Positions 2,929-33,436 of a stretch of 64,000 bases of DNA are shown here, piece by piece (positions within the stretch are counted from its first letter, which is position 1; each line of letters begins with the position of its first letter). The stretch is from positions 1 through 64,000 of the forward strand of contig NZ_JAEK01000007.1 of NCBI RefSeq assembly GCF_000518865.1, read 5' to 3'. This DNA is from Bacillus sp. J37 (GTDB lineage Bacteria > Bacillota > Bacilli > Bacillales > Bacillaceae). The notes beneath the pieces were generated by a model, which was given only the letters and a program-made list of their open reading frames with translations, ran no database searches and was not told the origin of the DNA. The translations under genes were made by a program, and so were the position numbers.

Positions 2929-3762
2929 CTATTTTTGTTTCACAAGTAAACCCTCAAGTAATTTCCGCACCTCTTTCCCATCCCTCTTCAACACATCCTT
3001 CACATCCTCTCCAAACCATTCTAAAGAAGCATTGATATCCATTGTTTCAATAGCTTCGTTTAAGAACTCACGATAATCTACCTGACCTTGAAATAGCGGC
3101 ACCATTCCATCTCTTGATCCTGCAGCAGCGTAGACATTGTCTGGTGCAAATACTGATAGCTTTTCACGTGATGAGATGTTTTTCAGATGAAAATGGGAGA
3201 TAAAAGGCTTAAGCTCCCTCAATGCATGAATCGGTTGTATTCCTGACTCCCATACATGCAGGACATCAAAGTTAATCCGAAGTGCCGGATGATGAACCTC
3301 TTGTAGTAGATTTACTGTAGAATCAAGTTGATCTGCCAGTGTATTTGGATGAGTTTCCACTAGAAGATATTGTCCTTTCACGTGTAATTCTTCACAAATA
3401 AGGCGAACCTTTTGTACAAGCTCTTTTCGCTCTTGATCGCTTGTTTGTTCACATCCCTTTCGTCCGACAAATGTTCGAATTTTTTTTGTGCCCCAATGTT
3501 TCGCGATGTTGGAAAGATCGTTTGTCCCTTTGATCAGCGTGTCAATATCGGCATCTAAAGGAAGGTAATCACTTATCATACTTGTTTCTAACCCATAGGC
3601 GTTGAGCCATTCTTCACCATAATGGAAATCATCCCGTAAATTTTTGGCATGTACTCCCCAAAGCTCTATTCCGTCGAACTGATGTGACTTCGCCCAATGA
3701 GCAATCTGATCAATTGAAAACAGATGGTGTCGAAAAGAGATCGTACAAATTGAGAGCTTCAT
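2929..3762 (-). CDS. asbF: 3-dehydroshikimate dehydratase AsbF (petrobactin)
   Basis: AsbF converts 3-dehydroshikimate to 3,4-dihydroxybenzoate, the catechol that caps petrobactin. The 277-aa protein has the TIM-barrel layout of the xylose-isomerase-like superfamily. Glu136 (LVETHPN), Asp166 (NFDVLHVWE), His192 (HFHLKN) and Glu248 (SLEWFG) are spaced as expected for the divalent-metal ligands of this family, and His138 and His169 sit near them. Its ATG overlaps the asbE stop by 4 bp (ATGA), showing translational coupling. It is the last gene of the operon. Taking a shikimate-pathway intermediate for a siderophore is the known role of this enzyme in the Bacillus cereus group. Confidence 0.92.
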   Translation of the reverse strand: MKLSICTISFRHHLFSIDQIAHWAKSHQFDGIELWGVHAKNLRDDFHYGEEWLNAYGLETSMISDYLPLDADIDTLIKGTNDLSNIAKHWGTKKIRTFVGRKGCEQTSDQERKELVQKVRLICEELHVKGQYLLVETHPNTLADQLDSTVNLLQEVHHPALRINFDVLHVWESGIQPIHALRELKPFISHFHLKNISSREKLSVFAPDNVYAAAGSRDGMVPLFQGQVDYREFLNEAIETMDINASLEWFGEDVKDVLKRDGKEVRKLLEGLLVKQK

Positions 3763-31733: not shown

Positions 31734-32141
31734 ATGGAAGCTTGGGAGGTAGCATATTTAGCTGGTATTATTGATGGAGAGGGATCAATTACATTAACTA
31801 GAATACATAAAAACGAACATCGGAGGCCTTGTATTACAATTGCATCAACGGATATAGAACTCTTAAATTACATCAAATCTTTGACTGGTGGGATTATTAG
31901 TAATAAAAAGAATTATAATCCAGAAAAGCATAAGGATTCTTTTACTTTAAATATAAAGAAAAAGGAAAAGGTTATAGACATACTTGTACAAGTTTTACCG
32001 TATTTAAGAGTGCCCACAAAAAGGAAACGTGCATTATGGGTTATTGAACACTACGACAAAGTTACAATCAGAAACGGTAAGTATAGTAAGGACCGTTTAG
32101 AGCAAAAGTTAGCTTTTGAAAAAGCCTTTTTTGAAATTTAA
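31734..32141 (+). CDS. Free-standing LAGLIDADG homing endonuclease
   Basis: A 135-aa single-motif LAGLIDADG protein; the motif LAGIIDGEGS is at residues 9-18, so it should act as a homodimer cutting a long, roughly palindromic site. Downstream features fit the family: IASTDIELLNYIKSLTGG, LNIKKKEKVIDILVQVLPYLR and a basic KRKRALWVIEHY stretch. The start at 31734 is chosen for the GGCGGTGA site ahead of it; a 26-codon longer reading has a weak start. It ends 41 bp from the tmRNA 3' end, on the opposite strand, outside the group I intron that interrupts that gene. The intron insertion site is its likely target, an inference from proximity. Confidence 0.85.
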   Translation: MEAWEVAYLAGIIDGEGSITLTRIHKNEHRRPCITIASTDIELLNYIKSLTGGIISNKKNYNPEKHKDSFTLNIKKKEKVIDILVQVLPYLRVPTKRKRALWVIEHYDKVTIRNGKYSKDRLEQKLAFEKAFFEI

Positions 32142-32165
32142 ATTTATTAAAGACAAAAATAAAAA

Positions 32166-32187
32166 CCACCAAATATGTATTTGGTGG
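32166..32187 (-). terminator. tmRNA terminator overlapping the 3' CCA end
   Basis: On the minus strand CCACCAAATA pairs with TATTTGGTGG, followed by TTTTTATTTTTG. The first six bases of the stem include the ACCA end of mature tmRNA, so terminator and mature 3' end overlap and exonucleolytic trimming is needed. Confidence 0.85.
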
Positions 32188-32198
32188 AGACGGTGGGA

Positions 32199-32474
32199 CG
32201 TGCTATTCCATGCTTTCGTCATGGCACTGACTATATCTTGAACCTTTAATAGGTCCTTCGGCGTCTTATACGAAAAGTAGTTTTTGCCTTAAAGTTCAAG
32301 GCAGGTTTTCGTATCCTAGTACTACCAAGTTGGCAGCCTATAAGTCGATACACGGCTGTTGGATTGCTCCACATACCGCTCGGCATTGCCTTATCACCAC
32401 TTTGTGTGACTTAGGTTTCACCGATAAAGCCGAATTTTCACTTATGTGTTACCACATAAGGCGACTAATAATTA
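32199..32474 (-). ncRNA. Group I intron in the tmRNA T-loop
   Basis: The intron begins after exon base T at 32475 and ends with G at 32199, as group I rules require. P1 is clear: CGATTAA (exon CGAT plus intron TAA) pairs with TTAGTCG around a TTA loop, and the splice-site T faces G, the conserved U-G wobble. Near the 3' end GGTTCAAGATATAGTC matches the R/S core elements (AAGATATAGTC is the P7 strand). Group I introns at the tmRNA T-loop are known in some Firmicutes. It has no internal open frame; the endonuclease gene lies outside. Confidence 0.9.
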
Positions 32475-32694
32475 ATCGAACCCACGTCCAGACATAACGG
32501 CACTTAAGCGTCTACGAGCGTAGTCGATATATTTGCGGTTTCGCTAACTCCTATGCCTATCGACAGGCGTCAGAGCAGCTAGTCTGATTGGTCTCTTCCA
32601 TCATCCCCAGACGGAGGAATCAGGCGTAGTCCACTAAGAGTGAGTCCCTTACCCTACCACATGGACGATGGAGGGAGGAACAGCTAAGCAGTTA

Positions 32695-32730
32695 TTAAGC
32701 TGCTAAAGCTAAGTTATTGTTAGATTTGCC
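32695..32730 (-). other. tmRNA proteolysis-tag reading frame
   Basis: From the GGC resume codon the frame reads GKSNNNLALAA and stops at TAA (followed by a second TAA). The LALAA ending directs tagged proteins to ClpXP; clpP is in this window at 53680. Confidence 0.88.
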
Positions 32731-32968
32731 AGTTATTATTGGCGTTGACGTTTTAACGAAGACGATCCCTTCGGCCCGCAACCTAAGCTCGAACTATCCC
32801 TGTCGAATCCGTAACGTCCCCATGATAAGCCGTATATACCAGCTAGGGAATACGGGAAGTATAGAAAGATCAAGCTTATTTGCTTATGAAGTTGTTAAAG
32901 TAAGTTGACTGCCTTACAAAACCTATTATATCAGACTGGCTTGAAAATGCAATTGTAAGGTTTTGCCA

Positions 32969-33436
32969 CTACATTTTCTGGCGCTCTCTAAAGGCACGTT
33001 CAATATCACGTTTTGCTTCCTTCTTCTTCAGATCTTCACGTTTATCGTATTTCTTTTTACCTTTACCGAGACCAATCAACACTTTTGCATAGCCATTTTT
33101 GATATACATCTTTAATGGTACAAGTGCATAGCCTTCTTCTTTTGTAGCTCCGATTAATTTGGCGATTTCACGTTTCTTTAATAATAGTTTTCTTGTTCTT
33201 AATGGATCATGGTTGTATCTGTTTCCTTGTTCATACGGACTAACATGCATATTCAGCAGAAAGACTTCACCGCGTTCAATACGTGCGTAAGAATCCTTTA
33301 AGTTAACACGACCATTACGAATTGATTTAATTTCCGTACCTTGAAGGACAATGCCGGCTTCAAATGTTTCTTCAATGGCGTAATCATGATTAGCTTTCTT
33401 ATTTTGTGCTAATGCTTTTCCCATTCCTTTAGGCAT
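32969..33436 (-). CDS. smpB: tmRNA-binding protein SmpB
   Basis: This 155-aa SmpB binds the tRNA-like part of tmRNA and takes it to stalled ribosomes. It has the OB-fold start ([46 protein letters not shown]), [25 protein letters not shown], and a C-terminal basic tail ([19 protein letters not shown]) that enters the mRNA channel. It precedes ssrA and follows rnr in the transcript direction, the usual Bacillus order. Confidence 0.96.

Follow-up and report, generated by a model that had tools for sequence, protein, structure and literature searches.

The 64,000-nt stretch of DNA analysed here (the window) carries a tmRNA gene (ssrA) whose T-loop is split by a group I intron, and a separate gene for a 135-aa endonuclease just past the tmRNA 3' end. 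We consider it probable that the protein belongs to a family of tmRNA-specific homing endonucleases, and that here it would move the ORF-less intron by collaborative homing. The features of the locus are as follows.

31734..32141, plus strand: LAGLIDADG endonuclease gene (single motif, 135 aa), lying outside the intron and convergent with the tmRNA (ORF list, Pfam)
32155..32187, minus strand: probable tmRNA terminator, the hairpin CCACCAAATACATATTTGGTGG (which overlaps the CCA end) and a T-run (by eye)
32182..32198, minus strand: tmRNA 3' exon, TCCCACCGTCTCCACCA (sequence)
32199..32474, minus strand: group I intron of 276 nt, inserted in the T-loop behind TTCGAT (RF00028, boundaries, covariation)
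32229..32239, minus strand: 3' strand of P7 in the intron core, AAGATATAGTC (sequence, invariant alignment columns)
about 32267..32316 (approximate), minus strand: peripheral stem between TACTA and GTATAAGACGCC (sequence, viral comparison)
32475..32821, minus strand: tmRNA (ssrA) 5' exon, 347 nt (RF00023 and sequence)
32969..33436, minus strand: host marker (ORF list) which we take to be smpB from its sequence and its customary location beside ssrA

The tmRNA gene is flanked by smpB and the endonuclease gene, and its terminator, read by eye, lies between it and the latter. The tmRNA was matched in the window by RF00023 (152.1 bits, E 6.7e-60), and the tag peptide GKSNNNLALAA was read by eye in the 5' exon. 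The predicted spliced tmRNA measures 364 nt and has a regular T-arm, GTGGG-TTCGATT-CCCAC. The exon and intron coordinates and the Rfam match bear out the first-pass annotation, which had placed a 276-nt interruption in the T-loop after TTCGAT. ARAGORN reported no tmRNA in the window because of the intron. The window genome is placed in the Bacillaceae, near Metabacillus niabensis; its smpB is 100% identical to that of locus L019, and its rnr 98.8%.

No ORF of at least 60 aa lies inside the intron in the ORF list of the window. With lax filters, RF00028 matched the intron with 43.1 bits (E 1.5e-9); the gathering score is 50, and the intron is therefore absent from a default Rfam scan. The comparative evidence for a group I intron is stronger than this score. 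In an alignment of 41 introns (taken from 47 readable among 48 tried), 44 of the 88 consensus pairs showed compensatory changes, the core AAGATATAGTC was part of the consensus, and the splice-site U.G in P1 was kept in 41/41. The proposed fold to a group I model was thus upheld by covariation and by the Rfam match, sub-threshold as the latter is. The 7-bp P1 claimed earlier stood in part: the U.G pair is conserved, while the consensus has six pairs and a seventh (A-U) is possible in the window intron. The intron ends, as had been noted, in an omega-G, which was also found in 47/48 loci tried; in that survey the 5' boundary GGGTTCGAT, including the U at -1, was part of the intron search pattern. 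Locus L315 escaped the boundary pattern, and its intron was recognised by profile.

The 135-aa protein was matched by Pfam LAGLIDADG_1 (E 1.6e-6). The best fold matches of its structure model were I-CreI and I-MsoI, at 16-22% identity in the structural alignments, with I-AniI and bI3 among the weaker sequence and fold matches. The single LAGLIDADG motif with its acidic residue, together with the matching fold, assigns the protein to the single-motif class. Endonucleases of this class dimerise and cut near-palindromes of 20-24 bp. The genes of I-CreI and I-MsoI lie within 23S rRNA introns of algal organelles, whereas the window gene lies outside its intron. That position and the opposite strand had been described correctly; the spacer from the endonuclease stop to the tmRNA CCA was counted as 40 nt, not 41 bp. 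The phage family matched by these LAGLIDADG proteins, phrog_5046, bears the label HNH endonuclease, which several phage records share; on its Pfam match and fold, the window protein is a LAGLIDADG enzyme instead. No plasmid relative of the endonuclease was found in a plasmid search.

On the collaborative homing reading, the protein would be a homodimeric, I-CreI-like homing endonuclease, its dimerisation and cutting being putative. Its predicted target is the uninterrupted tmRNA T-arm, a natural near-palindrome (GTGGGTTCGATTCCCAC). The joined T-arm GGACGTGGGTTCGATTCCCACCGTCTCC would be the DNA that is cut and the intron-split allele would be protected, so that a genome with both parts, in which the intron splits the target, would be immune. 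Where the pair meets an intron-less ssrA, the enzyme would cut the T-arm, and repair from the donor would copy both the intron and the endonuclease gene, with co-conversion extending across 57 nt (3' exon plus spacer). The tmRNA would be restored by self-splicing of the intron. After fixation the endonuclease would decay, and later the intron may be lost. The position of the endonuclease's relatives at tmRNA genes points to the T-arm region as the target, and with it to collaborative homing. The 19-bp core of the joined T-arm had no exact copy in the window's own genome; five places matched it with 1-3 mismatches, and the enzyme would therefore need to read beyond the core. In the window itself, an ORF-less intron is found with a separate endonuclease gene nearby. 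Sequence comparison supports both parts, their co-occurrence and co-variation, purifying selection on the endonuclease, a series of decay stages and the association of the protein family with tmRNA.

The co-occurrence was surveyed in 397 evenly drawn genomes of the order, which represent 136 genera. The endonuclease was matched in 52/397 genomes (29/136 genera) and the intron in 90/397 (40 genera). An uninterrupted T-arm, with at most one mismatch, was present in 301/397; by comparison of the three tables by eye, no genome of the 397 had both an intron and an uninterrupted T-arm, and six had neither. Both parts were found in 47 genomes, the endonuclease only in five, the intron only in 43, and neither in 302 (Fisher 4e-30). 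Counted per genus, 26 of the 136 had both, three the endonuclease only and 14 the intron only (p 1e-14). As the genomes are related, these p-values are a guide only. The counts indicate that the two parts co-occur far beyond chance and that the pair recurs in many genera, and some of the association may reflect vertical inheritance. Presence and absence in relatives are shared by both parts, yet the intron often persists alone.

Judged by coordinates, the two parts lay within 1.3 kb of one another and convergent in 39 of the 47 order genomes with both, on the same contig 6-454 kb apart in six, and on different contigs in two. What the first-pass annotation had called unusual is consequently the common arrangement within the clade. 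Initially, 22 of the 52 endonuclease genomes had no extracted locus (fragments and weaker matches); ten loci were fetched later and the remainder was judged by coordinates. Orientation was convergent in 41/41 Bacillota loci measured, and the distance from the tmRNA 3' end to the endonuclease gene was about 34-608 nt (median 74). In 24 of 29 newly fetched order loci (from 51 further matching genomes), tmRNA and intron lay no more than 1.5 kb away. Among 21 genomes of the window's own genus, the endonuclease was matched in 11, the intron in 14 and the tmRNA in all 21, and 11/11 endonuclease genomes carried the intron. Named Bacillaceae genomes gave 11 loci (three being strains of one species), all 11 with tmRNA and intron matches beside the gene; at L019 this is a displaced intron remnant. 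In other families of the phylum 8/398 genomes gave a match, including three open copies outside an intron-split tmRNA gene (L314-L316), and the family of G681 had two members with the endonuclease, both already known, among 20 genomes. All 37 open copies used in the tree came from genomes with an intron-split tmRNA (L315 by profile), and hence with a split T-arm.

Two further observations were made in this survey. At L154 (G225; 3121-3536) the match to the tmRNA intron is broken into two pieces, separated by about 135 nt, and the intron may carry an insert. Two genomes of the genus (L058, L059; G016, G003) hold a second, diverged tmRNA-like copy elsewhere, of 74-76% identity.

The endonuclease gene was away from the tmRNA in 12 genomes (four of the own genus, eight of the order), and all 12 carry the intron: at a distance of 6-51 kb along one contig in eight (G002, G007, G008, G252, G375, G208, G341, G458), of 454 kb in G219, and on another contig in G019, G159 and G322. 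Of the ten displaced copies whose junctions were read (those other than G159 and G322), nine had TGTGACTT-like variable ends on both sides; G019 was not clear. In these nine, terminal repeats (TGTGACTTAAA.. and its inverse) lie directly past the tmRNA terminator and directly before the endonuclease. Since the ends are transposon-like, the gene was probably once beside the tmRNA and then pushed away. In G002 a 5-bp duplication (TTTGT) is present, and neighbouring genes carry TniQ, TniB, TnsA and integrase domains, which identifies its element as Tn7-like by domain content; the domain search covered the G002 element and the G375 cargo. No duplicate tmRNA 3' end with up to three mismatches was found near the displaced gene in L060-L063.

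The first-pass annotation had held that an endonuclease at unrelated sites, in relatives without the intron, would speak against its reading. Such sites were suspected for L002, L005, L008, L010 and five order loci, and were set aside in view of the intron in all 12 genomes and of the transposon-like ends at 9/10 junctions read. Intron-less genomes with diverged relatives of the endonuclease do exist, namely G192, G336 and G395. These three belong to one family and account, with remnants in G421 and G100, for the five genomes with the endonuclease only. Their relatives are 33-35% identical over the matched part, in genomes with an intact T-arm and no intron match; the copy of G336 is open (33% identity over 108 aa) and convergent, about 650 nt from an intact tmRNA. 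They may have another specificity, or they may be evidence against self-exclusion, and they are the main counter-cases; they were left out of the later trees. The proposal of collaborative homing was partly supported by comparison (an ORF-less intron, a dedicated endonuclease outside it, co-occurrence, co-variation and relatives at tmRNA), while these three genomes count against it.

Several side observations concern the tmRNA 3' flank. In many genomes, Tn7-like ends lie about 30 nt beyond the 3' end of the tmRNA, often separating it from the endonuclease (L061 6706-12306; L141 3600-9890; junctions in L041, L046, L047, L143, L145, L147, L148 and L150), and ssrA looks like an attachment site of Tn7-like elements. 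G002 encodes TniQ, TniB and a TnsA-TnsB fusion. The 6.3-kb element of G375 (L141 3987-8367) carries a 1171-aa DEAD helicase and a 290-aa protein that no Pfam family matches; the two may be a defence pair. Among the element's ORFs of at least 150 aa, none of transposase size was recognised. At L153 (G119), the tmRNA 3' end and terminator are present in two copies 1.7 kb apart (1739 and 3460), as if an element had integrated.

Broken endonuclease copies are frequent, and several stages of decay and loss were found. In G005 the intron is 99% identical and the endonuclease gave no match, with short scraps of it visible by eye. Endonuclease remnants lie beside uninterrupted tmRNA genes in G421, G632 and G581. 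In G011 and G013 the tmRNA has a new 3' end free of the intron; behind it come the 3' portion of the intron, the former 3' exon and a decayed endonuclease. No clean pair of a never-occupied and an occupied site was found among close relatives. The best candidate was G247 (of the genus of G089), which has an uninterrupted T-arm; it retains the upstream flank of the endonuclease at 87% identity and the first codons, which contain a stop, while the rest of the gene is deleted, and was ruled out as a never-occupied site because this remnant indicates loss.

Of 38 copies, 31 had no stop in the matched part; across their 109 pairs with finite dS, the median dN/dS was 0.126. Where both members of a close pair were full length, the values were 0.08, 0.09 and 0.10. 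These ratios indicate that the endonuclease is under purifying selection; as smpB gave 0.018 in the same run (15 pairs), the constraint is moderate and below that of a house-keeping gene. In the 35 loci with all four pieces, the endonuclease distance correlated with the intron distance (rho 0.51) more than with the smpB distance (0.26). Given smpB, the partial rho between endonuclease and intron was 0.47 (Mantel p 0.001), compared with 0.13 between endonuclease and smpB given the intron. The pattern fits joint transfer of the two parts, although shared local recombination would look alike.

Relatives of the endonuclease were sought in two viral-contig scans, each with the best 80 of 600 stretches kept. 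At least 156 loci were obtained, at least 30 of them with the C-terminal motif [RKS]NG[KR]Y. Among the matches listed, 23 motif loci remained after removal of seven duplicates (near-copies such as L242/L244 and L255/L256 are still included): 20 at tmRNA, two at tRNA-Ser(tga) and one unclear (L252, with no Rfam match and a tmRNA-like end by eye). Three further single-protein viral scans returned known loci, one second copy and one weak match. A scan of motif-less loci with Rfam gave a tmRNA match in 0/25 (23 contigs), an imperfect control since Rfam missed the tmRNA of L271 and L275 and matched that of L269 only below threshold.

The viral copies occupy several positions. Six lie apparently inside a T-loop intron, antisense, between the split T-loop halves (L237, L238, L239, L240, L242, L244). 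Rfam gave no intron match in these six loci. A profile of the Bacillota introns matched the 5' half in L239 (2.6e-11), L242 (0.005), L238 and L244 (0.03 each), weakly in L240 (0.4) and not in L237, and the 3' half in L239 (4e-4) and L238 (0.04). The in-intron form is well supported by the profile in L239 only, and L240 and L237, where the profile was weak or silent, rest mainly on reading by eye. The viral ORF appears to occupy, antisense, the place of the peripheral stem of the window intron. Ten copies lie in or beside permuted tmRNA genes (L241, L243, L246, L247, L251, L253-L256, L269), called by Rfam, ARAGORN or record annotation, some below the gathering score, and in L269 by eye. L248 and L249 lie directly after an intron-less tmRNA. 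In L271 and L275 the gene is outside, antisense and a few nt past the CCA, with an intron at another T-loop subsite (intron by Rfam, 68 and 101 bits; tmRNA by eye). The tRNA-Ser(tga) loci are L250 and, inside a tRNA array, L245; in Gordonia phage WilliamBoone, gp22 lies between two tRNA-Ser genes. As side observations, the array of L245 holds 33 tRNA genes in 6.4 kb with the endonuclease beside tRNA-Ser(tga), and a Pistol ribozyme (RF02679, about 60 bits) was found near the intron-split tmRNA of the related viral contigs L242 (5106-5174) and L244 (4342-4409).

The rows from tmRNA and tRNA-Ser loci (with L252) grouped in a single clade, apart from seven other viral LAGLIDADG rows (100/98). A clade each was also formed by the Bacillota outside copies (99/92; 95/91 in the tree with fewer rows) and by the tRNA-Ser forms (98/89 and 98/93). 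The in-intron and permuted-gene forms were mixed, and the second outside group (L271, L275) grouped with permuted-gene forms (100/94). The constraint of both outside groups to one clade was not rejected (AU 0.11), nor was that of the outside and in-intron forms together (AU 0.31) or of the in-intron forms alone (AU 0.51). It is a tentative proposal, at somewhat under even chances, that the endonucleases with the RNGKY motif are a LAGLIDADG family specialised on the tRNA-like end of tmRNA genes (and on tRNA-Ser) in Bacillota and several kinds of virus. The family would have partnered T-loop introns repeatedly, from inside and, at two subsites, from outside, and would also reside in the intervening segments of permuted genes; introns and segments would be two ways to hide one target.

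The first-pass annotation had left it open whether the outside gene is a step towards an intron-encoded endonuclease or a relic of one. That question is now concrete, as viral relatives appear to carry the endonuclease inside the intron, antisense. Escape of the gene to the flank from an intron-encoded ancestor, which is compatible with collaborative homing, seems to us rather unlikely, at roughly one chance in a few. The viral relatives seem to lie antisense in a stem that is a short hairpin in the window intron, both intron halves were significant by profile in L239 (weaker in L238, L242 and L244), the strand relation to the tmRNA is the same, and a joint clade of outside and in-intron forms was not rejected. 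In the free trees, nevertheless, the outside clade does not fall inside the in-intron group, the permuted and in-intron forms are mixed, and two of the six in-intron cases were read mainly by eye. With many long branches and many unresolved inner forks, the trees do not decide the direction.

It is less probable still that the endonuclease is a free-standing homing gene in its own right, which targets the 3' end of tmRNA genes and copies only itself, the intron being a separate passenger that profits by chance. The relatives at intron-less tmRNA (L248, L249), permuted tmRNA and tRNA-Ser genes are what one would expect of such a gene, and they are a counter-point to collaborative homing, since they show that the family can do without an intron; so is the absence of an endonuclease match in 43/90 intron genomes. 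Against it stand the intron in 37/37 genomes with open Bacillota copies and a divergence that tracks the intron more than smpB. It differs from collaborative homing only in the co-copying of the intron. For a target at the intron insertion site the evidence is indirect: the 37 open copies used go with split T-arms and 20 of the 23 motif relatives listed sit at tmRNA, with the three diverged exceptions given above.

The two remaining readings explain less than collaborative homing, and each is very improbable. LAGLIDADG maturases exist, and I-AniI and bI3 are among the weaker matches, but a splicing helper of the intron, rather than a mobility enzyme, is hard to square with a single motif, best folds of the I-CreI/I-MsoI type, the intron genomes that have no match, and relatives at intron-less and permuted tmRNA genes. 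An accidental neighbourhood, with the endonuclease as one more passenger in an insertion hot spot that Tn7-like elements use too, is opposed by the identical strand and place in 41/41 loci measured, the tie with the intron, and the relatives in permuted tmRNA genes and, apparently, in viral tmRNA introns.

Group I introns in the tmRNA T-loop were reportedly first described by Williams in 2002. A 2025 survey (PMC11915505) gives 883 intron-bearing tmRNA genes, mostly of Bacillota, with an average intron length of 293 bp; an endonuclease gene lies inside 36 of the 883 introns (4%), and 19 of the first 23 are LAGLIDADG genes in the P7.1 region. The window intron is of the same kind: it interrupts the same gene at a similar T-loop site, follows a U at -1, ends in omega-G and has a comparable length. 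The in-intron endonuclease genes of that survey resemble the viral loci found here. In phages, a free-standing endonuclease and a group I intron likewise converge on one target in collaborative homing at the cyanophage psbA intron site and with T4 MobE (PMC3984707, PMC2988022). Those cases concern phages and protein-coding genes, and MobE is an HNH enzyme (PMC2988022), whereas here the chromosomes are cellular, the interrupted gene specifies a non-coding RNA and the enzyme is a LAGLIDADG protein with a single motif. T4 SegB (PMC2988022) is also a free-standing homing endonuclease in a tRNA gene region, and differs in being a GIY-YIG enzyme with a tRNA intergenic target and no intron. PMC13153191 concerns a 23S rRNA intron. 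In a search of open-licence literature by title or abstract start, no report of an endonuclease gene beside tmRNA was found.

In this one order, 47 of the 90 intron genomes carry the endonuclease gene, either open or reduced to a remnant and in most cases just outside the intron, compared with the 4% with a gene inside the intron in PMC11915505, whose accessible part counts genes inside introns and mentions none outside. To our knowledge, the pair is the first candidate from cellular genomes for collaborative homing at a gene for a non-coding RNA. Its stages lie side by side, from open pairs through decayed enzymes and lone introns to re-joined genes with scars. With what appear to be in-intron and outside versions of one enzyme family, the old question of how endonuclease genes enter and leave introns becomes testable.
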